Assembly (NCBI GenBank): GCA_002224055.1
Contig: AZLU01000061.1
Coordinates: 1 to 47,980, forward strand
Direction of reading: 5' to 3'
DNA from: Pezizomycotina sp. ARF18
Taxonomy: Eukaryota; Ascomycota
Length of the DNA: 47,980 nucleotides
In this document: positions 1-42,904 of the stretch, piece after piece
How the letters are laid out: the number at the start of each line of letters is the position of its first letter
How positions within the stretch are numbered: position 1 is the stretch's first letter
Translations under genes and position numbers: made by a program
Notes under the pieces: model-generated
What the model was told of the DNA's origin: nothing
Database searches by the model: none
What the model saw: the letters and a program-made list of their open reading frames with translations, nothing else

Positions 1-374
1 AATCGGTGACGGCGGTGGCGAGAGCGAAGTGGGGACCGAGTGGGGTGTGGGGATTTGGCGGCGTGGCCAGAAGTGTTCGGGCAATGAAGGAGCGACGGAG
101 CAAAGCCCTGGGACGCCGTGGGGGGTCGAGGGTCGCGAAGTGAAGGCTTCTTGCGCAGGTGCGCTCCTGGGTGTAGCCGTCTTGATACGCTTACTGGTTG
201 GCGTGGTCGGCGTCCCTGGCGACCGCTTCCTCTTCCGGCTAAGCTTGGGTGGACGACCGCCTTGCGACTGGACGAGCTCATGGCGTGCTTCTGGCGGCGC
301 AGACGTTGGCGTCTCCTTGAGGTGCTGCGCTTCGGATTTCGTGTGTATTTTGGGGCCGTACTGGTTGGATTCTG
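1..374 (-). CDS. Partial gene: basic AT-hook/NLS-like protein, cut by window edge
   Basis: On the minus strand one frame stays open for about 120 codons from about 374 to the left edge. It encodes a low-complexity basic protein containing GRPPKLSRKRKR, then a T/P-rich stretch TPTTPTSKRIKTATPRSAP, then a Pro/Ser-rich tail. GRPPK resembles an AT-hook core, and the KRKR and SKRIK clusters look like a nuclear localisation signal, so a chromatin or transcription factor is a reasonable guess. A TGGCCAG at about 375 could be the splice acceptor of this exon. The plus-strand frames through the same DNA look like shadows. The 3' part lies outside the window, so the family cannot be named. Confidence 0.45.
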
Positions 375-614
375 ACACTGGCCATTAAACAATCGTGAGG
401 ACTCACGTTTGGGGTCTCAAAAGGCTTCAGGGAAATAGAAGAAGGGCCGTTTGACTTGTGGCTCCGTTACTCGAGTCTGGATTGCACCGCTGGCGTGATA
501 TCAACACCTTTCAATGTTGATTTATATTTATTTATTTATTTTGCCTGAAAAGTGCCTGTTTATTTGAAGCTCTCACTTTGAAGGTAATTATTGAGTATAA
601 CTTTTTTTCCCGAA

Positions 615-625
615 AAATAAACAAA

Positions 626-668
<43 letters not shown>

Positions 669-750
669 AATAAATAAATAAATATAAATAAATAATAAAT
701 AAATAAATAAAATAAATAAATAAATAAATAAATAGATAGATAGATAAATT
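615..750. repeat. (TAAA)n tetranucleotide microsatellite
   Basis: About 130 bp of nearly uninterrupted AAAT/TAAA units with a few one-base interruptions, ending in a short run of TAGA units. It creates a false minus-strand reading frame rich in Tyr, Leu, Phe and Ile (532-915), which is not a gene. Confidence 0.97.
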
Positions 751-1153
751 AGTTAGTGAGTCGACATCAGAGAAAAGTGTAGTATTAGAAAGTTTATCTT
801 CAAGTACCCTTTCTAAGATAAAGAAGGAAACTTTGCGCAACACAGCATGATGATGCACGGGCACAACAGACGGTTTGTAACAGCACGACACGATGGCCAG
901 TTGACAACACGACATGATGGTCTACAATATCACGACATCATAGATTTGCCAGTACGATATGACGTTTGTAATTGTCACAGCGCGAGAGCTAATAGATGTT
1001 TATGAAACGGTCTTTGTTATAATAAGAAAGGCAACATTAGCCGCTCAGCCTTTCCCTAAGCTTCTGACATTTCCAATTCGACCAGAAAAAAAAACCCTAA
1101 TCAGGAATCTAATGGTGTCTGCAACTGCAACTTCTGCTTAAGCTTTAGCCGAT

Positions 1154-1330
1154 GCCAAAAAAAAAAAAAAAAAAAAAAAAAAAGGAACGTTCTTTTCGGA
1201 TGTTCCATGCAGGAAACGAAACTGGACGGAAAACGCCAATCAAAGCTAAATCCAAAAGAACGTGTCTTTCTGTCTTTTGGACGATCGTGAATTAGCTTCC
1301 TTTTTTTTTTTTTTTTTTTTTTTTTTTGGC
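1154..1330. repeat. Foldback: inverted A27/T27 arms around a 109-bp centre
   Basis: Left arm is GCC, then 27 A, then GGAA (1154-1187). Right arm is TTCC, then 27 T, then GGC (1297-1330), the exact reverse complement over 34 bp. Inside, CGTTCTTTT at 1188 can pair with AAAAGAACG near 1253, giving a second stem. The unit could be a small foldback or MITE-like insertion, or two independent homopolymers with a coincidental flank. No target-site duplication was identified. Confidence 0.6.
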
Positions 1331-2956
1331 GAAACTGTAAAAGTATTGTTATTTACTAATATATAGATCTTTCAATGATTATTATTGTTTTTACCGATGG
1401 AGAAAACGTTGAAAACTGGCATTATTCATATACAGAAAAGTGCATGAACATGAGCAAACCTTTGCATGCATACATGTAGTAGTGCATATAGTGCCAGAAG
1501 TCGGCCCATCTGATAAATTCCATCACACTATCTAGGAAAAAGATGTAATTTCGCCGACAGCGCTGCAATATTCATTATTATATCAACTTTACTAGCTGGG
1601 AATAAATCTCAGTCTTACGGTTCCTCGTGGAACGAAAAAAACTCCTGTGTAACTCTAATAATCAATAACAAAAAAAGAAAAAAAAAAAAAAAAAAACAAG
1701 CCGGAAGAGTAAGAATACCTGTCATTACCAAACATTTTTTTTTCCGAATCGTAGTCGAACCGAACCGAGAAAACTGAGAAAAACACTGAACGCCTATATA
1801 TCGTTTACCGTGAGGTATATCGTGAACACATAATCTGGGCGGGTTGTGGGTAGGCGTTGCGTGGAGTAACGAGGATATTTACAAACGAAAAAGGGTTTTA
1901 ATCCATTTATTAAGGAATATAGGACAAGAAGGCGTACAAAAATACATCAAAGACGATGATCAAATACATTAGCCGTACCGTGAAGAAAAAAGCGAAACGA
2001 GCGCGGGTACAAAAAGTAAGATATGTAGACCAAGTTGGAGGAGATGCGCCGTCTGCCTTTCCATCGAAAATGAGAAACGATCATACATAAAGGTTGAGAG
2101 ATCACTAAAGGTGGTAAAACGTATAGAATTCGATATTTAAAATTTACGACGAAACGTATACCATATAAGGAAAAAGGAAGTAACGTAAACCATCAAATCA
2201 TCGCAAAATAATTCAAATAATCGTGAAAAAGAAGTTATATATGTGGAAACAAAATGAACGATAACGTGTGCAGAGAGCAGATCGTATTAGAAAAGATACT
2301 TGAAGAAAGAATTAAATGGACGAAGAAGAAAACGGAATTAAGAGTGAAGAAACACAGAAAATGAAAAAAATATAAGAAACATAAAAGCATTAGAAAATGA
2401 AAAACATTAGAAAATCAAAAACGTTCGAAAAACGACCAATATAGGAAAAATGACTAACATAGGAAAGTGAAAAGACAAGCAATGCACAAATCGTAATACA
2501 TGGATGACGTGAACAAAAGGGAAAAAGGAAAATTACAAAGTGGAGATGAAGAAAATACGGAGGGAAAATGAAGAAAATACAAAGGAGAAATAAAGGAAAT
2601 CAAATGAGAAAATAACGAAGGTATTAAAAAAATATGATAAAATGTTCTTTCGTACAATCTTTAGGAAAAAAACTAAAATTCTCCTTTTTTTATCGTTGCA
2701 GAAGGAGACCTGTGAGAGAAAAGAACTATCATTGAAATATGGGGATTAAAAGATGTAATAAACTCGCTCGCTCAACCAGAAGTTTGTATCCGTGAAGAAA
2801 GAAAAAATGAAAAAAAATGAAAACGTGAAGGATCTCCCGATCGGAAAATTCCAATGCTGGAGTTTTTTCTGTTTTACGACGACGCAGGAACTGGAGGTGG
2901 AACTCTGGAGATGGCGTTCGTTCTGTTGATCCTTCGAGTTGGGAACCGTTAACAGG

Positions 2957-3522
2957 CTAAGACTCGATGATCGGACGATATTCGACAGCCGATCCAGATC
3001 CACCGACTCCTTTAGTACTGGCGACTGTCTCATCAGCTTGATGTTGACGGCCGGTTGGAGTTTGCAACGTTCTTTCCGATATTTTTAATATGGCGGATTG
3101 TCGGCTGGGATCGGGAGAAGACGCGGCGGATGATGTTGAAGAGGCTGCCGCGCTTGTAGATTGGCTGACCGATCTGTAATCGACGATACTTGTTAGCAAG
3201 TAGATCTCCAACAGAGAGAAATTGTAGACAAGAATTTTGTCATTTTTGGTGGGGAAGAACTTACGTGATGTGTTTCCACGGTTCAGGCAGAGAATCACGG
3301 CGGAGTAGTGCGCTATTATCTGACGGTGTCCTGTGGGAAGCAAAGAAGCTATGAATCAGCAACCATCGAGTTTTGGAAAAAAAAAAAAAAAAAAACAGAC
3401 TGGGAGAGCTGGAAGTGAGGGTCGGAAGGTGGTTGAGGAAAAGCTACTCACGATATCGGTGCCGCCATGACCAGTGCCACTAATGCGTACACGATGAAGA
3501 GCGTGAACGAGTTGAGCTTCAT
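2957..3522 (-). CDS. Small secreted protein, three exons, intact
   Basis: Exons 3522-3452, 3330-3265 and 3173-2957 are joined by introns with donors GTGAGT and GTAAGT and acceptors CAG. The spliced frame is open for 117 codons to TAG at 2957-2959. The N terminus is a classic signal peptide: MKLNS, then a hydrophobic core TLFIVYALVALVM, then a likely cleavage after MAA. A dibasic LLRR|D near residue 35 could be a Kex2 site. The mature part is Ser/Ala/Thr-rich (SSTSSAASSP) with no cysteine and no recognised domain, ending in EYRPIIES. The first intron carries a 19-A run. Secretion is inferred; the function is unknown (effector-like or cell-wall protein). This is the only gene here with no apparent frameshift. 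Confidence 0.8.
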
Positions 3523-4320
3523 CGTGGAGGAATGTCGGGTGGATCTCTATGAGAAAGTTACGATGATCGTGGTTAGCTTCAGCAATGCAAATACAGATGA
3601 AGCAATAGCGCATAGGACTTGAAGGGGTCGTCCGACATACCTGATGGTTAAAGTTGATGTCTGAGTATCTCCAGATCGTAAAGAGCTTCGAAGAAATGTG
3701 AAGATGATGGAATTGGAGATTTTAATAACCTGTACAGTATACTTTTGTTTGATGGTTTGAAGGTCGAACCTTTTTGTCGTAAAAGGAAGAGATGACTTTT
3801 GCAATACTACTAGAAAAGTATTTAGTATTGTCCGTTATATTCGTTTCGATTGATTGTTCGTGGAGGGATCTTTTTTTTGTGGGAAAGGTGTTTCCGTTTG
3901 GGAGGGAGAGAATGGGAGGTGAATATTCAGGGCTGTCATAGCGCCAAGTGAATAGAACCTGATCTGTAGAACCAGGGGCGGATCAGGATGGTTCGCCATT
4001 GTGGATAGTGTTGAATAGCCAGTTTGTGTTTTTTTTTTTTTTTTGGGCTATTGAGGGTGAATAGAGCCATGTGGTGATGTCTATTGAGAGTGAATAGAGG
4101 GGAGGTTGGCGATAGTGGTGATAGTGGGTGTGGTGGTGGTGTTGAGGGTAGAAAATGTTTAATAATTTTTGATTTTTTCCTATTGAGGTCAATAGAAGTA
4201 GAAGTAGAATAGAGGAGGAGGAGAGAAATATAGGTGTGAGAATTAATTATTTATTATTATATTATATTATTAGGTGGCTTGTGAAATAGAAATTCTCAAT
4301 AGGCTCAATAGAGGGAAAAT
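3523..4320. other. Intergenic upstream of the secreted-protein gene
   Basis: This contains the presumed promoter and 5' UTR of the secreted-protein gene and a T16 run near 4028. From about 4048 a recurring imperfect palindrome appears. No reading frame here looks protein-coding. Confidence 0.5.
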
Positions 4321-5023
4321 AACTGTTAGCCTGCCATACTGATATCACAAGTCCTATTGACAGGGCAGCTACTGCAGCGAAAAAAAAAAGAAAAAAAAAA
4401 AAAGGCTTTACTGATCCAAAATAAAATCAGTATATCGAAAATGAAGTTCTCAATGAGGTATACCTGCCATTGCGAAGCAGGATGAAGCTTGGAGTCTTCG
4501 AGACGGTAATGAACCATCTGGCTTATAGTCATGCCCGAATATAAATATCCGCCAAGAGCACTGTAGCTGGGTAGGAGGAACCTGCACGCCAGGCACACAA
4601 GACGCTCCGTAGAATTTCGCTCTTCTTCGGATGTTCTGGTTACGAGACTGGAATTTCGCCTAAAGCCGAAGTTGCTAGAGTTGAAGACATTTTCCAAAAG
4701 CCTAGTTTGCTGCGGATGTCCAATAAACTAGCTTCTTTAATAGGAATCGGCTCGTCTCACTTTCGGCATGACACCCGGTTCCAATAACGCGGGGTGTGCT
4801 TCAAAAACCCCACAGGTCACAAAAAAAAAAAAAAAAAAAGCAATTGTCAATAGAAGAGAAATATGATATAAGTTTTCTAGACAGTAAGCAGTGTATATCT
4901 TCTACTGACAGGGCGTATAACATCAAATCAACCGTTAGTCGTGAAATTCCCAGACTTCGGTTTCAGGTCTTTGTTTATTCAGGCTTGATATATGCGTGCA
5001 ATCTCGCCTATTGAGGTGAATAG
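4048..5023. repeat. Dispersed imperfect palindrome CTATTGAG-n-GAATAG
   Basis: Near-identical copies lie at 4048-4064 (CTATTGAGGGTGAATAG), 4081-4097, 4180-4195 and 5008-5023. Partial or inverted versions lie near 4290 and 4352. Each has CTATT and AATAG as inverted half-sites around a GAGGTG-like centre. A related copy sits at 41324-41339 beside a T30 run. The layout suggests a repeated binding site or repeat-element debris; no factor is assigned. Confidence 0.6.
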
Positions 5024-8000
5024 ACGTGCGTGCTATAGAGTTGAAATACTTTTTTTTTTTTTTTTAACCTTGACAAATTATTGCAGCATCTTTCACAAAG
5101 GGCTTTTTTCCACCAGGGTCTCTCTGAGACTGTATCACGATAGATACCTGTATAATCGATTCTTCCATACTCCGGTGGCTTTTGGAGACAAAGCGATTTA
5201 GAGTGCCGATTCTTTTCTTTCTTTCTTTCTTCCTGTTTTTTTTTTTTTCTTTTCTTTTTTTTTGGGGTTGAGAACCTTCACGACCGTAGATCCCGCGGAT
5301 TTTCCGTCATATTCAATGCGCTTGAAAAAAAAAGGAACCCCTAGGTAATAAAAATAAATAAATCATACCTACCACTACTCAAGCGCTCAAAATTCAACTA
5401 TACTGAGTAAATCATCGCTATCCATTTACTAGCCATCGCGTTTTCTTTCTCAGCACGGAATACAAATTATACTCTTTACTCACTTTTAGGATGAAATCCC
5501 CCAAAAAAAAAGTTTGCCCACATTTGGATCTTCGGAGGTTCTGGTTACGAGACGGATTTGGATCTATAGAAGTCCAATCGAAATATCTTTCGATAGCGCA
5601 CTAATCAAACAGTATACTGCACAGAGAGGCGATATGAGCAGCGTAGTATTCCCGGCGCAAAAATTACTACCGTTTCATATTCTCCTCAAACACCGGTATG
5701 CCGTAGTATCGTATCAGTATAATTTCTTTTCATAAACATATTTCGCTTCCTAGCTCTAGGCGTGCTTGAAATGTCGAGTCCGCGAGCTCATGAGATAATC
5801 TGTACTAAACGTTGATGTTTTTGACGGGAAGCTGATATCGACAGGAAACTACTGCTGTCTCGAGCTACGAGATTAGTATGATACTAGCTACGAATTCTAC
5901 AATTCCAGCGCTGGAAGCATACCAGTAAACCCCCATTCTTCATGGATGCAGAGTATAACAGTAGAAAAAGACCCGATTGCGTCGTAGCTCCCAAAAGTTC
6001 CACGGATAAGTATCCACCGCGTGAAGCCAGTAGCTTTCAGATTGCTAGGTCTCGAGAGGCATAGAACACGCCGCAAGGATTTGACATGAAAACAGTATAG
6101 GACAGTGTCAAACACGAAGGCTACGAAAACCCATCTTGCATCATAATCGGTAGCGAGTGAATCATGCTCTCGGGATTGGATTGAGAGAGGTATGATATTG
6201 TCAAAACTGAACGTTAAAATCTAATACCAGCCAGCAATTAATAACGCGATAGGGAGGTGGATAATTTGCTACTAGCCTATCACGATGAACAACAGGCTCC
6301 GAGAGAAGCTCTCGGAACGATATGCTATTTTACGTCTAGAGAAGCCGCGTTCTGTATCAGCTTCTTGACGTATTCAAAGTTTCGCAATATCGTCACAGCA
6401 TAAGGCGTTGCATAACGCAAATAATCCCTCGTAACTTTATGGACCCCTTCAGTATCTACTTAGGATAAGACGGGATGGATCTAAGGTCTCTCGTTTGATA
6501 GAAAGTTATTGAGACAAGAACAACGGAGAAGCATGTAGACGCGTAGGACATACGTGTCCCCAACTTTCAAATTTTCCAGTAGTATACACGTCCTTTACGG
6601 CATATCAGTAAGAACTACATCGACGGTTGGTGGGAAAAGCTTACCAGTAAAAAAAAATGAAATCCTCTCTTGTAGGCCACTAGATAAGTATTCACTGCAT
6701 CAAATATTGGGCACATGGCAAATACCCCCGTCATATATCCTTTCTCGAACGTCCGTAGAGTCGTATTAATGTGGAGTATTCTACAACCCGTATCATCAGT
6801 TCATAATTCTAGATGAGATCGAAGCGCGTAAACTTACAAGATCATTGGATAATACGACTAATAGCCATCTTAGGAGTCTTACGAAGACTTTCAACACAAA
6901 TAGACAGTGGGAGACCCAAGCAGCTAGAGCATATGCATTCCTAGCCTCTAGATTTCTAGAAAACACGCCCAGCGGATATCAGTAAACTGCACATCTGCCG
7001 GAGACCAGTACATAACGAGTAGAGAAGCACCCCCCCCCCCCTTCTCTTTCTTCCAGTTTCTTCTTATCTCCGAGCGATCTCTATTGGATACTAAGTAAAG
7101 CATCCCATCGCGTAAAAGCCGTTGATAATTCATATCACTACTTTAATACGCGTGGAACTGCCCTGGGGATGATATTAGAACACAACCGTGAAATAGCATC
7201 GAGGTGTATGATACACGAAACGCTACGAAGAAGCGTATTTTACGTTGCACTGGTATGAGAGTATCAAGCTCGATAATTTAATTCACTCGCAACCTGTTAT
7301 CGCATGATTAACAACGAAGAATTCACGCAGCAGTATGATATTTTTAAAACTAAGCTTTAAAATCCAATACCGTCCATAGTTCATGGAAGAAAAAGGATAA
7401 TTTCTTTTACCTACCATTCCTATCTTGATGAAGAGCGGTTCCGGTAGAAGCTCCCTTAAAAGATATGGTATTTTAAGCCTAAAAGAAGCGCGTTCCGCAT
7501 AAGCTTTTCGAACATAATAATCGTTTGGGTATCGTTGGCGGCATAGAGCGTTATATAGCCTGCGTCTTTCAAGTTATAACTCCGGAGGCACTTCAGTGTC
7601 TATTCACCGAGATCCGCTTGGGATAAGACGGGGATGAAAGACCGTTCCTTTAACAGAAGGGTTACCAGGTAAGAAACGACGACAGTTCTCGAGACGTTGA
7701 ATTATGTTTGTTTTAACCTTCAGGTTTTTTCTCAGTATACTCTCTTTTACAAGATATCATTTGAAAAAGTACAATGATGACTTGGAAGCAAAAAAGGGAT
7801 AAATAGTAGAGAAAAGTCGAAATACTCTCCTCGGGTCTACTAGATAAGTATTTACCGCAAGCAATCCCTTCGTCCTCATATTACTGTTTTCAAATATCCG
7901 CTGTGTCTTCTTACAGCTTATATGAGAACATCGTGGATCCTTGAGGGGAGCATACGAACACTATCAGTTCCTCTAGTGCGATACTATTAACACGAGCATC

Positions 8001-11000
8001 GAGAGCACACGGTTATAAAAATTCACAGGGACCCCTTTGCATAGTTAGAAACAGAACGAGGCCGGTAACTGCGATATTAGTAGACCAAGCGTAATATATC
8101 TAATCCCGACGGCGATCAAAGCAACGCTCGCTTGACGAAAGTGTTATTAAGTCTTGAGACAGGAAATTGGGGAACCGAAAACTATAAAGCATACGTATTC
8201 CGAACTTTCAAGCTTCTTAGCCTTATACACCTTCAAGTACATTACTAAAAGCTACACCGGCAGATTGGTTGGCGGTGAATGATCAAGGCGTTTCCCAACG
8301 ATCTCACAGAACAACCTCTTCGGATAGAATATCAATATCCTAGAGACTGGAGATGAGCGAAAGAGAATTGCTAACGTCTAGAGCCGGATGAAAATCGGCG
8401 ATTCATATAGGCCGCAGTATCCAAGACGGACCGAAGAAAATGAATACCGGTGAAAAAAAAATCGAAATACTATTATCTAACCTTGAATAGAGCGACCCTT
8501 TGGATAAAGTATCCACCGCAATGCCCCTTTATATCTCAGAATACCGCTTCTAAAGGCTCTCCGAGAATATCCTTACGGATATTATGAGAACGCCTTGGAA
8601 TTGTTCGGGGGCATTGGGTATACAGAAGCTAAAAATCGTATTTACATCGTAATTGTAGGGAATATCATACAATCGTGGTTGAACGAGCCATGGGATAACT
8701 ATCAACGGCCAAAGAAGCGTAGGGATAATATTGCTAAAAATGAACGTGATTAGTCCCGACAGCTGCGAAGCTACGTATGGCTTGACGCAAAGTTTAATGA
8801 GACAGAAGTCGACGAAAACTCAGACAGCTAGAACATATGTATACTTGGCTTCGAAATTTTTTCCCTAGTAGTATACATCCTCTAGATACCACTAAGAACT
8901 ACGCTCGAGGAATTGGGGAACAGAGGATACCAGTAGCGAAAATCGAGATAATCCCATCGGGTCTAATCGATGAATTGTTGACTTCAACGCTTCCTCGTCG
9001 TTATCACTCCTTCCCGAGGAAACCTCAAGCATCCTGCCTGACAAAATGAAAAAGTATCGCGAACATGGTAATGGAGGATATGGATAATAACGGGCTTTCT
9101 ACCTCCTGTCCATACTAGTAGCAGGAGTATTAAGCTTTCGTGATTAGGAGTAATCCGTAAATTCGACGTATATCAAAAAAAAAAAATTTATCAACAGGCA
9201 AACGACGCCGGTTATGAGGGCTAAAACAAAGGTAATCTAATGTTGACGGCGGCTGAAGCACGCTCACTTGAAGAAGAAAGCCTACTGGGATGGGAAATCG
9301 GCGGAAAGGGTCGAAGGATCCGTATTCCTAGCATAATCTCTAGCGGCATTATGCTAGAGGGATACTAGTAGACCGCGTATATTATAGGAGGGGCTTCTTC
9401 GACTTCTTGATCCGGGGTGCAAGTATACGAGTAGAACGAAAACTACTATGATCTCTTGGCTTGGAAAAGAGCCCATGAGATAAGTATCCCTTGCGTCAGC
9501 CCGTTGCACCTTCATGATACTACTCCTGAAGGCCGACCTGTTGATAACACGCACGACATACATGAAAACCCAATGCCGTCAGATCATCGCCCAAGTCAGC
9601 GGCACGCGAATGCTGTGCGATACTTTCTTCGCGATGACAACCGCGGATTCACATTCTCAATACGTGATTGTGCTCCACCTGGATACTGAATTTCTCCACA
9701 TAAACGGTCCATATACCGCCAGCAGACATACTGGTTAGCAAACTCCTCGGCTTTGCAAGTATAAGGGACAGGCGAAACAAAACCAGCCTTTATCTAGTCT
9801 ATTATCCTGTGGCATTACCATTCATATGGCACTCTTACGCGTGAGCGGATTCCGTTGCGGTAGAAGCTTCAACTCCTTTCTATTGAAAGACCCGCAGTTC
9901 AATAACAAAGGGAGGAAAGTAGAGTAGCGCGATAAGAATCTTTAAGTAAATTCAATTTACGTTTCACCTCGTGGTCGATAACCATCAAGTGGAAAATTGT
10001 ATTGAGACATCGCTTCGAAAAGTAAACCCTCGACAGGACAACAGAACATATCCTCCCATCCAACCCTGAGCGGAGCAGGATAGCAAATGTATAATTAAGA
10101 AGAATATTCTTGATTCATAAGAGCAACACTTTTCTGAAATTTCTCTTTATCCTCGTTCCACACGATAGTCTTATTCCCACCTATCTGCCACTTCTTCCGA
10201 TGAATTAGAGAAACGTAGACGACACAGTTATCTGCTAAAGACAGTTACTCTCACTGGATAAAATGAGCTAGTGGCTATTCAGTGATGCAACGTAAGCAAT
10301 TTACTCTCATGAGGTATGTGTCTAGTTGACGCTGAAGAGGTTGTAGTTAGTCTCGCTTCGTGAGTACGAGTCCGTGGGCAACGATAGGGTTCAACAATTC
10401 TAAGCTTAATTAAGAAGAGGGGGAGGGGGTTGTCTCAGTTTAATGCAATACAGCAAGTATCTCGCACACGTCCGCTAGAGATACGCATTACCATTAGCCA
10501 ATGGAAACGCTCGCCTACTATACAAAAGTCTGAGCTGTAACTCTAGATTTGAATGTAAGGATGCTCTAAGATGACAGATATTAATACGTTGAGCTACCAA
10601 CGACTGACGTCGCTTTACATATTATCCATGTAATATGCCAGCCAACAAATGGGATCATAAAACCTACGAATCAATTACAGAGTGAAGATATGATATCCAA
10701 CAACCGCTCTTCCACAGGATATGGATTTTTCTTTCTCGTAAAAGTACGTATCATATCAAGACGAGCAACCCCATTTTTTACGGCAGTTCTTAGGACTCGT
10801 CTGCTCTGTTATAATATCACCTATGATAACAAGAGCCTTGTAAATTCAGCTCCAGCTACGATGCTACAACGAAAGCAGGAGACCCGCTTGTGTAAAATGC
10901 GTTCTAGAAGATTTTCGAGGTCTACCTTGATATTTTATGGATCGACTGCTTGTTCGAAATCATATACAGCATGCGTAAGGGCCGCCAAATCATACTACTG

Positions 11001-14000
11001 GATCTTTTGATCAACAAACTGGAAATTTTCTATCCCTCACCAATATGCGTGCGTGCCAACCTCGCCGTCGCCGGCCAGAGCAGAGTATAAAAATCCGATC
11101 CCAATCTTAGAAAAACAAATGGCTAAAAGCGGAAAGCAAAAGTCCGCGGCCCGAAAACGAAGACGTATCTCTTATGGCTCCCGCATCATGTTAAGGTTAG
11201 GAACGCTCCGAAACTATCCAGCGGTTATAGTCTTTTTTTCGGGAACGCAGTCATAAGCGCTGAGTGATACTCAAGATTAGAGGTCCCGATATAAAACCGT
11301 GCTTGATGATATCAAAAGTGAAATTTTCCGCAGCGTAAGAAATGCTACGCTCAGCAACATTATCACATAAAAAGCCATCTCTACGCTCTGGAACTAGCAA
11401 CTGTTTATGGGAATAACTCCAAAAGCTCAATGTCTTCGGATCTCCTGGCAGCTTCCCCCAGTATAATAAATCATGTAAATGAAAAGCTAAAGGTAGCGAA
11501 GCATGTACAGATGCGCGACCGACAAGGGAAGTGCAGGATATCCCGGCCTTCCTTTAAGGAATTCTTCAAAATTGAAGACCGGATACTCACGTGGCGTGAA
11601 AGATGGGAATTTAGAAAGCGACGTTGATATATCCAACCTCTATTCAAGCACACGAAGTAAAAGATGGGGCTACGCCGAAGATCTCGCTGTTGATACCTAG
11701 AAAGATGCTGCTGTCTGGGTTTTCAGAATATTAATAGTTCTCAAACTTAGGCACCCAACACTAGCATATAGACCTTGTGAAGAAAAGAGAGGTTACCTGG
11801 AAAGGATTCGGGTTTTAATACTTCAGTCTTTATAAATTTATCTTAAATCGCTCTCGATTAAACAGCCAAATACAAAATAGGCCTTTTTTCTTTTATATTT
11901 CAAAAGTACTAAATTTATTTGACTATTTCCATCTTCGAATACCGTGCTAACCCTCGAGCACAACGATACATAAGCAAACAAACGATTCTGCCTTCTCTCT
12001 TCCTTATCGGATACCATACCCCCAAATGGAATTTAATGAGAGCTGGTATTGGGTGATATTTTACCGCGATCTACAGTCTTACATTCAATGCTGATCATCT
12101 AATCAGAAGACACTGTATTTCTAAACAAATCGCCTTCACGCCTTTAAAATTAGTGTAACGCTTCCGTTGCGACACTCCCGGCTGATACTCAAAAGTCTTG
12201 TCGTCGTCGAAGAAGAAAATATGAAAAGTATTAGGATGCTGATTACACACGGGATATGTTCTCCTCGAGCTCAAAAGAAGTTTTTAGCTAGTTCGAGAGT
12301 AGAGCATCATGGATTATATTAGAAGTTGTAACAATAATAAAGTCATTTCTCGCAGACGACGATGATCACAGACAACATAAAACATAGTAATCACCACGGC
12401 ATCAGTTTTCTTGGATAGTACCTATTTGATTTGCAGCATATAAGGCTCTTTCTCCGTACGATACAAACTTTGTGAGCAACCTAAACGCTCCTTAGGAACA
12501 TCGGGCTCCAGCCGCTTTTTCCCAATTACATTAGCAACCCATAATAAGAGCAATGAGCCTTCCTGACTGCGAAATAACTTTGATCTATATCTGTCCCCGT
12601 CTTCCAAAAATAATCCTAAGCGTTCAGTCAAGATACGATACATGAAACCCAAAAACCCTCAAATTTATCGTACAAGTCAACGGCACGCGAATGCCGTGCG
12701 ATACTTGTAGTTTTTCTCCTCGCGAGGACAATTGCGGATCCATATTCAACGCGACGGCGCCGGCGTCTACCCATACCTACGCTTTACACTTTCGTACAAG
12801 ACAAACCATGAAGATGTCGATTGAGTGATATAAGCGCCGCCTCCGACACGCTCATTCGTAAGCGATATTCTGAAGCCATCTTCTTTCGAGAAGCTCAGCA
12901 TCATGGATTGAAAAACCATCTAGTCTCTTAACAGAAGATCTACGGAACAAACGATAACGCAACCGTCGGCCTGGATGTGGGAGAGTATGTCTACTTTTCG
13001 TTATTAAAGAAGTATGCAAAGTTCCGCGATATAGAACACATGAAACAAAAGGATGTATTGTGGTCCAGAAGCTGCGCTCCGATACTACTTACTCTGTTTC
13101 TCTCGCGATGGAAGCCCTCTGCGATATCAAATGCAGCAAGCTTTCGTCTTCGCTGATGGGGTTTATGTCCAGCGCGCCCCACCCCTGCATATTCCATTCC
13201 ATGGAAGCAATAAAGGCTCATCCTGAAGTGGCCATAATTTAATTGCTGCACGACAAGTCCTCCCGCGTCATAAAAGAAAGAACCCATCCCCGTCTTTCAA
13301 CATAAACAAGGAACCCATCAGGAGGTATCGATACTTCACTTCTCGCCACGAAAGACAAGAAGTAAACAAGGAATTCCTTGCTGCCAGTCGCTAGCAACGC
13401 CTGAAGATCCCGATTATAGAATGCCGTAGGAGTCGTGTCGACTGGCTCAATCATACGAACCTCGATGCTAGAATGGGAATATCCCGAAAGGTGCAGTGGA
13501 AATATTATGTGAAAATGAGCCTAAGGGATCCGTCCGATAGGTAAAGAAGCTAAACCTACTACCTTCCATGGCGATGAAATATAAACACTACCGTGGTCGA
13601 TACCGTTCGCGATACGAACGCAGGTTGCATACATTGAATGCTATGGCCCCAGGGGTGCTATATCATTGAAATAGGACAAGGAACCCCACACGATATTAAA
13701 CGTGCAACATTTGAAGGAACATTATACATCGATTTTATGTCAAAAAAAAAGGCGGGAAAATATAGAATTTCTTTTTCTTTATCGGTCGCGGGGGAAAACT
13801 GCTTTGGAGCCCTACAGCCGGTTTTGCTCAAATTCGATCAACATGAGACGAACATCGATATAATTACTTCCTAAGATGTATTTCACCGGTGTGCCATAGT
13901 GACAAACCGGGGTCTCCCGTTTTGATATGCCTTCAGTTACGATGGTCTCATACTGACAAATAACCGGGTTTGTAGATGGGTCTTTTTGTTCAAGTAACTT

Positions 14001-14152
14001 TCTTGGTTGTTCGGAATCAAGATACAGTACGGAAACAGGGAAAGAAAACGAACACAGTAATATCGAAATGTCTGTTGACAGGAACAAATGTCAGGGGAAA
14101 TCGTATAGGAGAGAAAAGATTCATACATTGTAAAGAACACGACATGAAGTTC

Positions 14153-14192
<40 letters not shown>

Positions 14193-16600
14193 GGAATCTT
14201 CAATGGGTCCTATAATAGCTCAAATCAAATGCTGGCGTTTAAGGATCCCGTACCGCAGTGTACGGTATCTGTTGTCGACGAATCTGACGCATACTTAAAA
14301 GATCACCCGTCGCCGAATTACTTCTCCATAGAGTAGGATGTAGATTCGAAAATCACGCGTGTTCTTTAGGTAGTTCGACCTCGCACCTCGATATGGATAA
14401 CAGCACCAACCGGTAGCGATATTGGATTTCCTCTCTCGGTGCAGATGTCATAAAGCGTAGCAAACACCAATGATGCCAACCTCCGATATGATACGTAACT
14501 TCTCTGCCGCATCCAGTCATCATAATATCGACGGTACAACACACAATAGTCGAGGCTCATGAACAAAACCGTTCAGCGCATCGACATTCGAGCATTGATA
14601 TTTAACCGATTATCTATCCTCTGATCCCACAAATCATACGTCTGCTCGCGCCTGGAGGACGATATCATATCACGTCGACCTCTACTACAGAGATGAAAAG
14701 TTTTCCAGTTCCACAAAGGATGGCTAATACATAAACTTAGCAACGGAGTGCTAGTACCGTAAAAGCCCAGGAACACTATATCATAACTCTAGATTATCTT
14801 TTTCGCGACGAAGACACGCGGCTTCATATCGGGCCCAGAAGTTCCACAAACCTAGTCAACATCATATACTTTTCTACAAAACAACCCCCTCCAGACCTCG
14901 TCGAGAAACATAAGCACTCCTTTCGCCATCAACCGTGGTCCCATATCAGGTACCCTAAAACAGTAGTGCTTGTTTCACGCGGGATAATACGGATTTAAAG
15001 ACTCTCTCTTTCCATTACATACGAGGAGAGAGAGATAAAATAGCTGCCCGCATGGTTGCGGAATACTAGGTCGGCTCCTTACTAGAGCTTCTCCTGACGC
15101 CCTCGACATAGAACACATTGAACGAAAACAAGCATTGTAGTTCCCTGGGGTCGTCCGGTCGATAATTGGTCGCTTTCTCTCACGAAAAGAAAACCGCGTC
15201 AAGGATATTATACGCTAGAGAACAGATTCTTTTTCCGCTGATATTATGTACGAAAGACTTTGGGCTACGACATATTCTATTTGTAGGAAAAAAATAAACC
15301 TTGATGAAGAACGTATAACTTCCTCGCCGCATCGCCGTAGAAGCAATCGACAATATGGGGAGTAAAAAGTATCCCCATTCTCGAAAAAAGCACGAAGTTC
15401 TTTCAACACAGCTCATACTCTACTCCTCATCAAGAACAAAGCATTCTAACTGGCGACCCTCAACGATAACAGAAATCTGTATCTACGAGAGCTTTTATAG
15501 AATGTTGTCAAACCTATCGCCAAAATACGATATTCTTCTTTTCTTGGCATACTTACGTTTAACTCTAGGAACGAGGTTGGTGTCGGAAATGATAAAGTTC
15601 ATGAGATAAACTCTCTATTCAACTTCATAATATAAGATGCTACGGCCCGTCCCGCTTCCAGATGTATAGACTACTTCGGAACGAATGGAAAATCTCCGTA
15701 AATAATGAAAATTCACAACCATTGTGGCATTAGCTACGCCAATCGAAGTCACATAGAGCTTAAAATCGTATTACAAATTGGTTTTCAAGCACTTTTATGA
15801 TGGCACTTTTATGATGGCGGAAACAGTAAATTAAACTATTGGGTAGGACTCTAATGACCCCCTTCAGAAGAAATGCAGGGTGGGTGGGATCTTACCACTA
15901 TCCCCAAATCATTTAGAACATGGAAGGACCGATCAGCATTATTACTACACGAGATAACAGTCCAACGATGGTAAAACATCATAAGCGATCGCTGGCAACT
16001 GGGAAGATATACTCTACATTACTCGAAGGGGGAAAAGAAAAAGTACGAAAGGAGTACTATGCGTACATAAAACTTCACAATATTTCAATACAGAATACCT
16101 TGGATACACAAATAGGGAAGGATAATACGATCAGTTTTTCTACATACCAGCAGCAATAACATAAACCCCAGCAAAAAACAAAAGCTCAGTCTACCAAATC
16201 AGGATTCGACATAAGTAGTTAACTTCGAGCAGTTCGCCACTATACGGATAGTGAATGCTTCTGCTTCTGCTATGATTTGATATTCCCCTAAATTTCTCTC
16301 CTTTTCATAGGTCTAAAAAAGCATCCCATCTAGACGACCGACAGGCGATAAATGCGTGTTTTTGTCCAAGAAAGCTTTTTTGTTTATTTTAAATTTAGTA
16401 TCTCATGGAGACAAACATACGAAAACAGGAAAGCTACGAACACCAGGAAAATACTACAGATATAATGGTAGAAAAACTGTACAGGAGTTAAAAAATTACA
16501 CGATGGCAAACTTGGAGAAACACCGCAAAGGGCGTTATACATGGGACGGAAACGGTTCAAGCCATCATTGATCAAGAAAAAAATTGATAGCTGGTGTAGA
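4320..16600. repeat. Field of highly diverged repeats without supported genes
   Basis: About 12 kb of roughly balanced composition with only short, unconvincing reading frames. Many segments recur in diverged form. One word, GATAAGTATCCACCGC-like, occurs near 6004, 6682, 7841, 8502 and 9477. Blocks 6290-6720 and 7428-7870 align in order throughout, about 1.14-1.16 kb apart. Shorter matches link 4625/5530, 9593/12674, 13025/15100 and 14488/15310. By eye many mismatches are C/T or G/A, so this looks like an old repeated family decayed by point mutation. No LTR, transposase or reverse-transcriptase motif was recognised. Block boundaries are approximate. Confidence 0.6.
14154..14190. repeat. Poly(A) tract, 37 bases
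   Basis: An uninterrupted run of 37 A, the longest homopolymer in the window. It lies inside the diverged-repeat field. No retroelement body was recognised upstream of it. Confidence 0.95.
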
Positions 16601-17017
16601 AAGATACGAACGGGGAGCAAATAACGGAAGAGAAGCAGAGGTAGGGGTGGAATAAAAGGGAAAGGGGAGCAAAAAGCGGTATATATGGGATGATATAAGT
16701 TCAGTTCTACTTTTGTTAGAGTAAGGGCTACACTTCCTAATCGAAAAACTTTGAAGAATAAAAGCTGGATAGTATATTAGGAAGCTCTGAGTAAAGGATA
16801 AGATTAACGGTAGGGGAAAAATACATGAGCATTTAAAAAGTGAAACCTAACGATAACTAAAAAAAAAAAACGACAAAACCGTAGAATGCATCGAAGAAAC
16901 CAACATCCGTCTTTACAAAGGAGAATTACAGATGCCTTTTTTTCTTCCAGGTAAACCCTTTTTAATTTTTATTTTTAGCCGTAACTTTTTTTTTAGAGAA
17001 ACACCTCTTTGAACCTG
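16600..17017. other. Intergenic, 3' side of the eIF2 gamma gene
   Basis: AT-rich sequence with short A and T runs and no coding signal. It probably contains the 3' UTR and polyadenylation signals of the minus-strand eIF2 gamma gene. Confidence 0.5.
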
Positions 17018-18962
17018 TTAATTACCGGTGCCGTTTTCCATTTCCACGTCTTCAGCATCGAGGATGCTGCTGTCATGGCTCTCCAGTAATTCCTTGAACT
17101 TGACCAGCGACCTATCGTGGCGTTTGAAAATTTTCGCGACCTCCGCCACGGTCAGACCAGTCTCCTTGCACTCCCTCGGGAAGTCCTCCTAGGAACTCTC
17201 CTCGGGTAGCTCAATGGTAACACAGTGACCTAAAAACGAAAGAAAGTAAAAATTGTAAGCATAAAACAAACATGAGGTGAAAAAAGCATTCGTGGAAAAG
17301 CGTTGTGTCCTTACAATATTAGCCCAACCAATAAGACGCCAATGGTTCTCGATTCTCCTGCTGAGCGCAATCTTCTCTCCTTCCTGCGTGCAAGCCGGCG
17401 ACGTGAGCTGCAGCTTGGCGGCATCGAGCTTGACGTTGACAACTTTAGCACCGTAGCCGTGCTGCCGATGTTTACCATCAGGACTTCCCCTTTTGTCAAG
17501 CGCGAGACCTTGGCCTGCTTGCCGTCGGCGGTCTTGACACCCAGCAGGCGGCGGAGGAGGAAGTAGTTCACCTCGAGCTCGACGAAGATGCTCGGGAGGT
17601 ATCGCGGAGGCGAGGACGAAACCGACGAGGCGATCGGCACGGCAGAGTGTGGGATCGACGCGGGTACCGACGCCGATGAGACCTCCGGGACGGCGAACTT
17701 GAGGTCGTTCTTTTCGGTGGAGATGGAAATGACGCGCGAGAAGATGGGCTTGCACTGGACCCTTCCTTCGTCGCCACGGGTGACGAGACCGGGGCGGATT
17801 TCGATCTCGTCGCCGATCTTCAGGACACCGGTCAGTATAGATCCACCGGCGACACCACCCTTGAGGTCTTCAATTTCAGCTCCGGGCTTGTTGACGTCGA
17901 AGGAACGGATGACGATCATGTGCGTCTCGCGGTGAAGTCGCGGACGGGGACGGGGATGTGCGAGACGATGCGCTCGTTGATGGCGTCGATGTTGAACTTG
18001 AGCTGGGCGGATATCGGGATGATGGGCGAGCCGTCGGCGACGGTACCGCGGATGAACCTCAGGATCGATTGGTAGTGCTCCGCGGCGGATTCCTTCCGCA
18101 TCAGGTCGACCTTGTTCTGGAGGATGATGACGTGCTTGAGCTTCATGATCTCGATGGCGGCCAAGTGCTCGGAGGTTTGCGGCTGAGGACACGATTCGTT
18201 ACCGGCGATGAGGAGGAGGGCTGCGTCCATCACAGCGGCTCCGGACAACATGGTACTCATCAGAATATCGTGACCGGGCAATCGACGAATCTAAAATGCA
18301 CAGTGGCTTTTAATTAACTTCCTTTGCCACCATGTATATAAAGCCTTCTTCCTTCAAGAGTTTTATAACTCATTTTTTTTCTGTCAGACTTACGAGACGT
18401 GGCGGAGAAGCTTATAAGTACCGCCGCAACCTTCCCTCTCGCACGGGGGATCTATCTCCTTCTCACTTTTATAACTCCTAAAGCAACCCGGCCGGGGCAC
18501 TGCTTGTTGTCGCATTTGTAAATCTTGGCATTGGCGTACCGAGCTTGATAGTAATATTCCTCTCCAGCTCGTTCTTGAACCTGACGGTCTGCACCCCCGA
18601 GATGGCCTTGACGACCGTACTCTTCCCGTGCGCGACGTGGCCGATGGTGCCGATGTTGATGGTGGCCTGGCGGGCTATGATCTCCGGCGACAGCGGGGTA
18701 AAAGTTGAAAAGTCGACCGTGTCCGGGTCGGGCTGCTCGGGCAGGAACGGCTTGGGGGACTCGGGGCGGACCTCCTCCTTTTGCTTCTTGAGGGAGGATT
18801 TCAGCGGGATTTCGTCTTCCGATTCTGACTCCGACGACGGGTCGAGCTGCGTGTTACCCAGGCGTCCGTCGGTACGTCTGCCAGGTTCTCTGTGGTCGGG
18901 TCGAGATTCGGGGAGTCCCCGGGGGATTCTGGTATCCCCGTTTGCCATGTACCGTTCGACAT
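17018..18962 (-). CDS. GCD11: Translation initiation factor eIF2 subunit gamma
   Basis: GTP-binding core subunit of eIF2, which delivers initiator Met-tRNA to the 40S ribosome in the cytoplasm. Likely exons are 18962-18394, 18290-17315 and 17229-17018. In order: an acidic N-terminal region, the P-loop GHVAHGKST, the switch region [11 protein letters not shown], a zinc-ribbon-like Cys cluster (YKCDNKQC, then EREGCGG), [18 protein letters not shown], then the beta-barrel domains ([30 protein letters not shown]). At least eight single-base losses interrupt the frame, for example near 18,538, 18,277, 17,932 and 17,690, mostly in G or C runs. An in-frame TAG at 17189-17191 precedes about 56 further codons that look coding. 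The start at 18962 (MSNGTW) fits fungal orthologues. Identity is certain; the exact C terminus is not. Confidence 0.94.
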
Positions 18963-27804: not shown

Positions 27805-28156
27805 TTAATATCCAATAAACCTAAAGAGAAGACCTCCTACTCCAACTCTCGCCAACAAACTCTGAACAGCCGGCGGTTCGCCCCCACTAATTCCCCCACC
27901 TTCTCCCCCTTCTTAAATATTAAAAAAGTAGGCATAGCAGAAATCCCGCACTCCTGCGCGACGTCACCGACCTCGTCGACGTCTACCTTCGCGAAGGTTA
28001 TCTTCCCGTATCGTCCTCTTCGGACCATTTTTCGATCATGGGCGCGATGGCTTTGCAGGGGGGACACCATTGAGCGTAGAAGTCGATGAAGACGACGTCG
28101 TTGTTCTCGAGGATTTCTTGGAAGGATTTTTTGGAGGTGATTGCTGTGACGGGCAT
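27805..28156 (-). CDS. Thioredoxin, canonical WC-PP-C active site
   Basis: Small cytosolic-type disulfide reductase, intronless as seen here. It starts MPVTAITSKKSFQEIL, then DVVFIDFYAQWCPPCKAIAP with a WCPPC active site (WCGPC in most thioredoxins). It continues ITFAKVDVDEVGDVAQECGI, SAMPTFLIFKKGEKVGELVG and a C-terminal ANPPAVQSLLARVG. There is no signal or targeting peptide, and the length of about 105-115 residues is typical. Two one-base losses occur: one before ITFAKV, and one in the C-run at ANPP. The second decides whether the stop is at about 27,838 or at 27805-27807. It would be reduced by thioredoxin reductase; no partner gene is nearby. Confidence 0.9.
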
Positions 28157-30551
28157 TTTGACTGTGGAGGAGGAGGGGTTTTGTTTGGTGAGAGTTGGTT
28201 GTAGGTGGGGTTTGGTTTGGTGGGGGTTTATGTTGGTTATGGTGGGGTTGTTTTGTGTTTGAAGTTGCTAGTTGAGTTGAGAACTGATAAAAGGGAGATT
28301 CTTCACGGGGTATATATACTAGAATTCGCTATATCTATCCACCTATCTATCTACTTCATGCTGCTAGTGAAACCGCGAATACTACCCCCCAAATTCAATG
28401 AGTCTGGCCTCCCCCAGCTCAAGAATCAAATGGAAGCGGTTAGAACTTGATCGGCTTATCTGGCTTTGACGACAAGGCTTCTTTCACGAAAAATGAGGCA
28501 ATTTTGCGCAGCAGGGCCAGCCTCCCCGCGATTTTATGCATGCGCATGTTACAAAGTAGACTTGGAAGGAAGGGATCTTCACTTTATTTATTTATTTTTT
28601 TTTTTTTGTTGAATTGATTCGTCAAAAAAAAGTTCCGGTGGACTGCGTATATCATGGATTTCACTGCCTAGCTAAGTAGTTTACCAGCAGCTTGCAGTGA
28701 TTGCTCACAAAGTTCTTGCTCTGCTATTTTGTACAGAAACCCGTCCGTCAAGCTCGTAACGAGTACTCCAGCTGCTTTCCATGCAGAAGTTGGTTCTTGA
28801 TTAGTAGTCATTGGAGATAAATAGCATATAGCCTCGTTGGGGCTCTTTTAGAGTCCAAATTAGCATCAATGAGTGGTCCTTTTCTCTCTCTCTCTCTCTT
28901 TTTTTTTTTCTTGAACAAATTACGTGATAAAGTTTGCTCCGCGTGTGATATATAGTGAGATCTGTTCTTTTGCAAATGCGCAGGCTGAATGCATGAATGA
29001 GTTGATCGAGAGAAAGGCTCGTCACTTTTTCGAGGTTGTCGTTATCGTTCTAGGTTAGCTGAGGTGGAAGCTTCCATAGCTCTCTTCTATTGGCAGATAC
29101 CGAATACGAGCTCGAGGTTACCGTGATACTTGCTACCGCAGCGGGGGGAGGCTGAGAGATAAGCGGGAAGGCTTTAGAAGCTAGTAGAAGACTGATCTTA
29201 GGGTTTTTGATATAGTTATTTCGCTATTGTACTTTTTTTTTTTTTTTTTTATCCTTTCTGGCAGCGATATCGATACCGACACCAAGAAGAGCGGGCTTAG
29301 CTTGAGACTTATAAGCTTTTTTTCAAGGGTATTCAAAGAGCTTGGTAGGTTCTTTCGTCTTTCTCATCCATGACAGAGTTACGACGATACGGTCTCGCGC
29401 ACAAAGGAGCTTCTCTTGACTGCAAACCGTCTCTACGGGCAGGAAAGGACCCGAGTTCAGAGAAACCTATCTCGAGTGTAAGCGCCAGTCCCTTTAAAAG
29501 AGATCGTGAACACGTGACCCGGGTGTACCAAAAATGAGGTCACTTCCGATGCGAAGGACGAGTAGATCAGATCGCATCTAATGCCGAAAATACGATCCGT
29601 CTCATGCAGAATAAATGCCTTCATTGAATGAGATATTATTATTGCAAAATAATGACTTTGACACTTTTTTGTAGCTGATATCGAGATATAGAAGTGAGCC
29701 CGTGAGAATGTATTTAAATAGAATGTATTGTTGACAATAATGATAGTAGTGTTATATTTCCACGTGTAAGAAGAAGACGTAAGATGTGGTTCTTGTTACA
29801 GAAACGAAACTGTGTGGATTTGTCGGGTTTGTTAATCCGCGAAAAAAGAAAAAGAAAAAGAAAAGAGAGACAGAAGAGAGAAAGAGAAGAGGGAGGAAGA
29901 CAGGAGAGGAGACGTGATGTGATCACACCAACACAGACACGCACTTTATTTCTGCTCCCTCCTATCTACAAAAATATACCTTTTTTTTTTTTTTTTTTTT
30001 TTTTCTTCCAAGTTCCAATCCGCCAACAATTCTTTTCAAGCCCTCCCTCCCTCCCTCATCTATCTAGTATCTATCTACCTTTTCCTTTCCTTCCTTTCCA
30101 TCTTCCCTATCTCAACTCAATTCCCATCCATCATCCATCGTCCATCATCACGATCATCATCAACTATCAACTATCATCTCTATTGATCGTATAGACTTCA
30201 TCTCTTTGTCCGAGAGAACAGGCCAAATACGATCGTTATCTTTTTCTTTTTGCCCTTTGTTTCTCGGAGCTTTTTTGCAACCTTTTCGCGGCTCCAAAAG
30301 AGAACACTTGGCATCCTATTATTCCTACTTTTTTTTTTTCATTCCAGGCAACTTTAATACTTTTAATTCCTTTTATACAATTGCCCTTTTTTTTTCCTTT
30401 CGCTTTTCTTTCAATCTCCATCGACCTTTTTTTTATTTTTTTGCTTCGGCAAACCATCTTTGTTTTTTTTTTGAATTGAATACATTTGTTTCATCAGTAT
30501 TAGCAGGTAGATAATGTCGAGGGCGGAACTTCGGTTGAACCTCCAGTAACA
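28157..30551. other. Intergenic, 2.4 kb, divergent promoters
   Basis: This lies between the starts of the canonical thioredoxin (-) and the Ies1-like gene (+). It contains a CT dinucleotide run followed by T's near 28,885, a T20 run near 29,231, and from about 29,950 a strongly pyrimidine-rich stretch before the Ies1-like start. No protein-coding gene was recognised. Confidence 0.5.
29950..30540 (+). promoter_or_regulatory. Pyrimidine-rich promoter/leader of the Ies1-like gene
   Basis: Nearly 600 bp of C/T-dominated sequence on the coding strand, with a T-run at about 29,980-30,004, CCCTCCCTCC words, TCTATCTA units and CATCATCA units. CT-rich tracts just upstream of the start are common in fungal housekeeping promoters. 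The transcription start cannot be placed. Confidence 0.4.
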
Positions 30552-33500: not shown

Positions 33501-33891
33501 CTCTGAGGCGTGTTACGCGCCGTCTCGGAAGGTGGGAGGACTTTGCGGACTCGTTCGCCGATAAATCCTCCGAGAAGAAGAAAGAGGAGCTTGCTGCTGC
33601 TGCGGCTGCTGAAGACGCCGGATCTGATGAAGGCGAAGAGACCGAGAAGGATGAGGAAATGCAGAACGGCGACGACAGGGACGACGAGAACGAGAATGAG
33701 GATGAGGACGTCGAACTCGCGGAAGCTGAAGCGGAGGATGATAACGTGGATAAAAACGAGGACGATGAGGAAGCCGAGGAGAATGGAGTCGACGTTGACG
33801 TCGACGACGATGTTAAGGAGAACGGGGTCAAGGAGAAAGACGGGGACGGACGAGAGAGGTCGATCCGGATGTTACCATGAATGACGACTAA
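30552..33891 (+). CDS. IES1: Ies1-like subunit of the INO80 chromatin-remodelling complex
   Basis: Nuclear, fungal-type INO80 subunit. A long disordered N-terminal part (Ser/Thr/Arg-rich) is followed by the conserved core: DGEPLWRKDIQYEFLYAIF, FADVYIDAMARSSKTSKVL, LLVNIGRM, FFPEMRAQLRTYHPIP, YKQLQDAPRLKSILKGAC, PINLTFLLASFAPRVTEIHF, DFFDLVMGMNLSSKVARA and YLESNFTAEEALSNPFG. The 3' half has small exons 32565-32627 and 32694-32741, then KYLEDPFAKSDDEVDGW, TNFPGPAGCIPLSDEE and YADTLRRVTRRLGRWEDF, and ends in a long Asp/Glu tail. Introns include 31401-31492, 32313-32564, 32628-32693 and 32742-32813. At least six one-base losses break the frame. The stop is 33878-33880 or, after one correction, 33889-33891. 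The family name is from memory of fungal orthologues; the core is clearly conserved coding sequence. Confidence 0.75.
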
Positions 33892-35044
33892 GAGGACCTT
33901 TTACTATTTTCTTCTTAAAATTTAATATCGCCGCTACGACAAAAAACTCCAACGACAAAACCCCGAGGATATACACAACATTAATAAACAACTAATAAGC
34001 ACTACGTACTCACTAATACCAGAGGGGACTATTAATCACCATTGTTGGGATTATTCTTTTAATTACTATTATACAAAAACGGATATTATTCATTTTCTAT
34101 TATTAATTACTGGAATTTTGTTTACGGGGTGGGGTGTCATTTCTTTTTCTTATTCTTTCGGTATCGTATCATCTTTTTCGTTTTCTTCTCACGGTATATT
34201 CAGTTTACCTTTTTATATCGCTCGGTATAAAAGACAATTTTTTTTCTGTTGTTTAGTATTCTGGGGACCTTTAATAATTACAAAGACATATTTTTCCTAA
34301 TAATAATCGCTCTTGACAGTCGATCGCGACAATATCATTGGAAATTCTCGCCCATAGTGTAGCTTTGATATCACCCTTGACTGTGAGCTGGTAACAATTA
34401 ATCGCTTATACCGGAAGAATTAGGCGCATATGTATATGCAGCCTTTCAATTGATATTTTTTTTTTCCTGATCCGTGAAGCTCAACAGAATCGTTCATACT
34501 TCGCTATCTGCTGATTTTTCAAAAGACGTGGTAACATCGGAGGTTGTCTTTTATATGAGCAAACGCAGGGGGCCATTGCGAGACGTTGGTTTCGTCCCCC
34601 GATTCTTGGCAATCTGTGTCTCGCATGAACGTGCCAGATTTGCTACTCTCCCATGAGCTCTACGGCGCATATAAAACTGTTCACACCCACTCTGTCCTTC
34701 TTTTTTCCTCTCATTCTTTTCTTTTCAAGCATATTTTTTTTTTTAAATCTTTGGATCGCGATTCGCGAATATCGCGTGAGTTACTAGTATTTTATTCATT
34801 TTCAAAGCTTGAGGATTGGTCCAGATCCCTGGAAGATTTCCTGCTGCTCTCTTTTTTCTTTTTTTAGCTCATGAGCTCAATCGGCCACAAAGTTTGAAAT
34901 TGTCCTTTTCTCTCGCACGCTCCACACTCCTCTCTTTTTCCAACCTTCACGACGGATAGTAAAGCAGCGCTTTCTTGCCCTATATATTCCAACTTACATC
35001 AGTTCTACAATATCCGGGGATAAGGCTTTTCCCAAATCGCAGCA
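33892..35044. other. Intergenic, Ies1-like 3' side and ERJ5 promoter
   Basis: About 1.15 kb. The first half is AT-rich and likely 3' UTR. The second half is T-rich with several T-runs (near 34,455, 34,735 and 34,855) leading to the ERJ5 start. No gene was recognised. Confidence 0.5.

Positions 35045-41288: not shown

Positions 41289-41290
<2 letters not shown>

Positions 41291-41320
<30 letters not shown>
41291..41320. repeat. Poly(T) tract, 30 bases
   Basis: An uninterrupted T30 directly followed by ATCCTGTTGAGATGAATAG. That sequence is related to the palindromic motif found next to the T16 run near 4028-4064. Confidence 0.95.
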
Positions 41321-41322
<2 letters not shown>

Positions 41323-42873: not shown

Positions 42874-42904
42874 CAGGGTATTTAGCGTTGAGACGCCTTG
42901 GCGC
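42874..42904 (+). repeat. Left terminal inverted repeat of the hAT element
   Basis: It starts CAGGGTATTTAGCGTTGAGA and continues CGCCTTGGCGCC. It pairs with the right terminal repeat over the first 19-20 bases with one T inserted, and then loosely with CCTTGGCG. Confidence 0.85.

Follow-up and report, generated by a model that had tools for sequence, protein, structure and literature searches.

An old, strongly diverged tandem array in a gene-free stretch beside an eIF2-gamma-like gene of Pezizomycotina sp. ARF18

We analysed a window of 47,980 nucleotides (bases 1-47980 of contig C61, which measures 206,787 bases in a genome of 46.4 Mb). Beside an eIF2-gamma-like gene, this window carries an array of strongly diverged copies in direct orientation. 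With a probability of about 0.7, we read the locus as intergenic DNA that was duplicated locally long ago and has since been decaying without clear constraint. The array is an ordinary kind of sequence and no new kind of element is needed to describe it; the data support neither a new repeat family nor a satellite.

The array (field A) was compared with itself by blastn over 4301-16700. The best pair, 6186-6705/7329-7865, lies on the same strand at an offset of 1143 and is 63% identical (135 bits, E 2e-33), whereas none of ten dinucleotide shuffles exceeded 30.8 bits on either strand. An earlier note, made by eye from the sequence, had matched 6290-6720 with 7428-7870, about 1.14-1.16 kb apart, and had proposed a self-comparison against shuffled sequence: the match is real and the repeat signal stands well above the shuffles. 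At E<=10, eight same-strand pairs were obtained, six of them at E<0.001 (Table 1); the four opposite-strand rows, including a reciprocal one, all had E>=0.47. Over 4300-17000, six direct and no inverted pairs were found at E<=0.01, the directness being that of a tandem array. Most array pairs are 55-65% alike. Such low identity, together with weak matches at the left edge that involve poly-A/T, might point to chance similarity or low-complexity matching. The distance between 135 bits and the shuffles and the recovery of five of the seven proposed units (see below) nevertheless refute this explanation for the main pairs, and we hold it to be extremely improbable.

Window-by-window alignment with reversed-query controls located the signal at ~5.7-9.9 kb and 12.1-16.6 kb. 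None of the alignment windows starting at 9701-12001 exceeded the reversed-query control, and below 5.6 kb a single one was barely over it (228 versus 216). The repeats within the field previously delimited as 4320..16600 are thus genuine, with altered limits: their clear onset is at ~5.7-5.9 kb, the stretch of starts just given is without signal, and similarity to a second field of the contig (see below) extends to 16.88 kb. At window 4040-5020 we also observed a cluster of the word CTATTGA (five copies and four reverse complements) with a near-palindrome, CTATTGAGGTCAATAG, at 4180; this word occurs 20 more times, scattered over the other 200 kb of the contig.

The left half of the array was cut at a recurrent 16-base anchor word into seven segments of 406-748 bp, with borders set by us and the last one arbitrary. 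The anchor had been reported near 6004, 8502 and 9477; it is exact at 6005-6020, occurs with at most two mismatches at 6683 and 7843, and has looser copies near 8502 and 9477. Leave-one-out profiles recovered five of the seven proposed head-to-tail units of ~500 bp at E<=1e-4. The other two (0.3 and 0.046) did no better than the control, a reversed window with a best E of 0.082 against the seven-unit model; this, like our own choice of borders, counts against the local-duplication reading. Pairwise unit scores, with units named by their first base, were highest for 5996/7088 (z 24), followed by 7836/8494 (12), 7836/8968 (8.5) and 7088/8494 (8), and reached at most 3.8 for 9469; the spacing of 1.13-1.14 kb therefore corresponds to two proposed units. 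The observed offsets (1127-1158, 641-662 and 492) fit a unit of ~500 bp plus a two-unit level. The right half is tied to the left by the similarity of 8.9-9.7 kb to 12.1-12.8 kb and has longer-range copies of its own; no one unit covers all 12 kb. The best conserved short pair of the array, 9558-9656/12638-12747, contains a GC-rich hairpin-like word, CGGCACGCGAATGC(C/T)GTGCGATAC.

Table 1. Copies, units and modules of the array and the gene beside it (window positions)
Feature	Position	Strand	Remarks
Array unit 1	5996..6681	+	Anchor GATAAGTATCCACCGC at 6005; leave-one-out E 4e-9; closest to unit 7088-7835
Array unit 2, short, weak	6682..7087	+	Leave-one-out match at 6892-7016, E 9e-5
Array unit 3	7088..7835	+	Leave-one-out E 3e-10
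Array unit 4	7836..8493	+	Leave-one-out E 4e-11
Array unit 5	8494..8967	+	Leave-one-out E 2e-10
Array unit 6	8968..9468	+	Leave-one-out only E 0.3; first part matches unit 4 (7650-8207/8782-9334, E 5e-14)
Possible array unit 7	9469..9989	+	Right border arbitrary; leave-one-out E 0.046; 9558-9656 matches 12638-12747, 75%
Right-half copy	12102..13352	+	12.1-12.8 kb matches 8.9-9.7 kb; 12369-13352 matches 14442-15436
Right-half copy of 12369-13352	14442..15436	+	E 1e-16
Gene-proximal module, inner copy	13826..14180	+	Matches ~16184-16583 and C61:67986-68331
Gene-proximal module	15928..16882	+	Present in fields A and B
Neighbouring gene, eIF2-gamma-like	17018..18948	-	Flank, outside the array; upstream limit approximate
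Direct pair	12369-13352/14442-15436		Offset 2073; 55%, E 1e-16
Direct pair	7650-8207/8782-9334		59%, E 5e-14
Direct pair	9558-9656/12638-12747		75%, E 2e-10
Direct pair	6496-6634/8142-8272		65%, E 1e-5
Direct pair	13913-14134/16295-16510		60%, E 7e-4
Two further direct pairs, weak			E 0.034 and E 0.045

At its right end the array adjoins the eIF2-gamma-like gene, which carries Pfam eIF2_C and GTP_EFTU_D2 on 17311-18192 and a sub-cut-off GTP_EFTU match on 18478-18948. Its C-terminus is followed by a stop codon at 17018-17020, and 135 bp separate the gene end from the gene-proximal module. Genes nearby are of eukaryotic kind: among proteins of solved structure, their best relatives are an NAD-isocitrate dehydrogenase subunit 1 (3blw) and a class I alpha-1,2-mannosidase (1dl2), both yeast proteins, and the sequence is accordingly taken as fungal.

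A second gene-free field (field B, C61 ~67.6-87 kb), 51-55 kb away, has six direct pairs of its own and is inverted relative to the window array. Window 15928-16612 matches C61:71542-72171 (66% over 700 columns, E 1e-48) and window 16178-16882 matches C61:67636-68332 (57%, E 2e-15), both in inverted orientation. Field B also matches parts of 11.1-11.6, 12.4-13.4, 13.8-14.2 and 14.6-15.1 kb, with scores of 264-325 where controls reached at most 267. The matches between the two fields follow no single colinear order, which counts against local duplication. Homology from end to end was considered and rejected: the homopolymer-masked left edge scores 262, below some controls (up to 315), and a relation is claimed for the right half of the array only. 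In field B the copy of the module lies ~380 bp beyond the end (67255) of an open frame of the PRA1 family. Each module is placed 3' of its gene and oriented alike relative to it, an arrangement that might exceed chance and weighs against neutral decay.

The array is not unique of its kind on this contig, where stretches of more than 4 kb without a 150-aa open frame make up 49% of the bases (assembly gaps and an AT-rich island counted in). For comparison, a 10-kb sample of contig C30 has a frame of more than 200 aa in 6 of ten 1-kb bins. Four of the seven gene-free fields of C61 (A, B, E and G) carry old direct pairs, 14 in total and none inverted. The single old direct pair in each of the two fields besides A and B counts for local duplication; fields C, D and F, where internal repeats were looked for and none found, count against it. 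Five gene blocks compared likewise gave two direct pairs and one inverted pair, all of 34-36 bits. Best scores of the array against fields D, E and G (250, 257 and 289) were at or near the control maxima (242, 258 and 289). A vocabulary common to the gene-free fields was also rejected, 6-mer correlations between different fields in either orientation reaching at most 0.095 (A/B pair) as against at most 0.115 between gene blocks. We also observed, in a gene-free field, an old direct pair (C61:175427-176099/178839-179528, 59%, 108 bits) with no detectable relation to the window array and, at C61:147573-147947, two short, diverged copies in tandem (period 188 bases), likewise in a gene-free field. 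Elsewhere on the contig, C61:107426-108022 and 110675-111810 hold inverted pairs ~3 kb apart, with 70-84% DNA identity and open frames that correspond, which may reflect partial duplication of a gene.

With the whole array as query, its own genome yielded 51 matches at E<=10; 18 of the 19 candidates were scored, and the matches listed did not include the position of the array itself. One of them, C61:71544-71809 in field B, on the opposite strand, is a true relative (75%, E 2e-43). Each of the remaining 50 measures at most 60 bases, and in the query they are confined to five stretches of poly-A/T or C+T. No copy of the array was found in 46 Mb besides field B, in a search that is insensitive below 75% identity: with query 15900-17000, the 75% copy was found and the copies at 67636-68332 (57%) and 13834-14179 (~60%) were missed. 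Queries from fields B, G and D (9.0, 6.0 and 8.0 kb) returned self-matches only. Profile searches covered 36 loci (263,564 bases of the 46.4 Mb). In these loci, the unit model picked up the four copies used to train it plus two weak places within the array (E 6e-6 and 0.0013); with the module model, its own four training copies were followed by 23 matches whose E values start at 0.009. A keyword search of open-licence literature for a precedent of the locus gave no match, a search that proves little. The suggestion of an undescribed repeat family is thus not borne out, the negative being weak at 57-60% identity, where known copies were missed.

Could the array be part of a diverged satellite, centromeric or heterochromatic, spread over the genome? 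Its head-to-tail units of ~500 bp with their two-unit level and the second field on the contig would fit. The anchor also has, within two mismatches, 29 genome matches (20 forward, 9 reverse), of which 3 fall in the array and 26 outside, against 10 for the reversed word, a mild excess. One of the outside matches (locus L013) was examined and shows no array: the unit model finds nothing there and the flanks stay within reversed controls (best 282 versus 292). Moreover, the genome search found one further field at its limited sensitivity, the array has 42% GC, ordinary genes adjoin both fields, and instead of many homogenised copies most pairs are only 55-65% alike. We therefore consider a genome-wide satellite very improbable. 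Of the two descriptions offered earlier, an old tandem array agrees with the direct pairs and the five recovered units; the satellite-like one does not agree with a single related field.

A coding origin of the array was rejected on its flat period-3 signal (1.3-1.4, compared with 19.1 in GH47 exons) and on its short stop-to-stop frames, of which the longest in each 2-kb bin between 4 and 16 kb measures 89-141 aa. Intron-like motifs occur in the array at shuffle level; they are uninformative, as gene blocks also did no better than shuffles. In a mismatch-phase test, the widest spread was 0.28/0.37/0.33 in one pair; this test is crude, since phase is lost at each indel. A Pfam search of 4301-16700 in six frames, with X at stops, gave no match at E<=0.1, in agreement with the earlier statement that no element type is recognisable, and the array thus shows no protein of a transposable element.

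Divergence was characterized on eight aligned pairs (three within field A, one between A and B, three within B and one in field G). Transition/transversion ratios were 0.73-1.16. Each pair had between 29 and 86 indels over 410-917 aligned bases, or one per 10-15 bases, and block-to-block variance of identity was 0.69-1.41 times binomial, about what chance gives: the copies are evenly diverged. In the left array, conservation in disjoint copy pairs is nearly uncorrelated (phi -0.05, 0.115 and 0.02, se 0.063). In the gene-proximal module it is slightly correlated (phi 0.08, 0.19 and 0.155, se 0.078), dropping to 0.05-0.12 (se 0.098) away from gaps, which may hint at a weak constraint on this module. 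The even divergence, the many indels and the few common conserved positions are best explained by independent neutral drift, the module hint aside.

An AT-rich island in the same window (43000-45500) has 15% GC and a strong RIP signature (TpA/ApT 1.36, (CpA+TpG)/(ApC+GpT) 0.14); it ends some 2.5 kb before an assembly gap, C61:47981-49600. The composite RIP index is +1.22 in this island versus -0.09 in the array, which is thus not marked as a RIP-mutated duplication; the seven gene-free fields range from -0.18 to -0.01 and two gene blocks gave -0.20 and -0.38. Contig C51 carries pieces of a C-5 cytosine methyltransferase. Tandem copies of ~400 bp and 80% identity are described as RIP targets in ascomycetes (PMC4165359). 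When young, the array units (406-748 bp) would have been such targets and yet they show no RIP signature, so that the array would have arisen when or where RIP was inactive, or the trace would have faded. The array resembles the RIP-mutated tandem duplications described there in its target-sized units and in the RIP-like DNA at 43-45.5 kb of this genome, and differs from them in being itself without the signature (PMC4165359). A nest of decayed transposon copies is quite unlikely. The locus is repetitive and gene-free, the genome carries five reverse transcriptase matches and the island is strongly RIP-marked, but no protein remains in six frames, copies are direct only, transition/transversion is near 1, similarity on other contigs, in a search that missed known copies of 57-60% identity, is confined to poly-A/T or C+T stretches and the RIP indices of array and island differ as given above.

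Structured RNA is unsupported, as there is no general folding excess over the flank, no Rfam match at gathering score and no tRNA in the array. Mean folding z was -0.26 (+) and -0.10 (-) in the array, +0.07 and -0.25 in the flank; windows with z below -2 amounted to 4.8% and 5.4% in the array, 3.6% and 7.1% in the flank. A single sub-threshold Rfam match was to mir-2780 (E 0.015, 26.6 bits versus 95.5). Three of 334 window-strands fall below z -3, all on the + strand (8476, -4.2; 16576, -3.2; 6226, -3.1), and count against decay. These minima, the slight common conservation in the module, the recurrence of the anchor across units and one-stranded words such as GGATAA (11 to 0 in 5500-9700) would suit a lncRNA gene, or a regulatory or chromatin element of repeated motifs, in which a few short words are selected and the rest drifts. 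However, folding does not exceed the flank overall, no Rfam family is found, divergence is even, conservation in the left array is uncorrelated and the array has no 6-mer vocabulary in common with the other gene-free fields beyond that common to gene blocks. One-stranded words are also ordinary outside the array (CTACGG, 10 to 0 in 28000-42900; GAAAAT, 11 to 0 in 1-4300), and we consider selected motifs of this kind unlikely. A bolder version, very unlikely in our view, would make the two related fields paired long non-coding transcription units, each running toward the 3' end of a housekeeping gene; their repeated words might act in RNA or chromatin, with fast turnover by tandem duplication that escaped RIP.

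Local duplication followed by decay, the reading that we prefer, could have proceeded as follows. A gene-free non-coding stretch beside the 3' end of the eIF2-gamma-like gene would have grown through repeated head-to-tail duplication, of the ~500 bp unit and also of blocks of at least two units. An inverted copy of a block with the gene-proximal end would also have arisen on the same chromosome, at a distance of 51-55 kb. Base changes and numerous small indels would then have accumulated independently in each copy, leaving ~55-65% column identity. From the sequence we infer the order of these events, the absence of function and a duplication by unequal exchange or replication slippage. Some long gene-free blocks in this genome may accordingly owe their growth to local duplication of ordinary non-coding DNA and not to transposons. 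In the array, old tandem copies are free of RIP marks, ~26 kb from strongly RIP-marked DNA.

Satellite arrays with higher-order structure also consist of head-to-tail units with a two-unit level, as in the present array. The latter differs in its few units, the lack of homogenisation, the lack of amplification found elsewhere and the ordinary genes beside it. A parallel in setting may be the genome of Pyronema confluens (50 Mb, 29.2% coding regions, 0.46% RIP-like DNA), in which few repeats are highly identical to their consensus and the authors read the repeats as evolutionarily old (PMC3778014). The repeats described there are transposable and other repeats, recognised by RepeatMasker/RepeatModeler, whereas the present array is without transposon signature. 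That genome is similar in size and its repeats are mostly old and strongly diverged, which makes for a resemblance and not an identification (PMC3778014).
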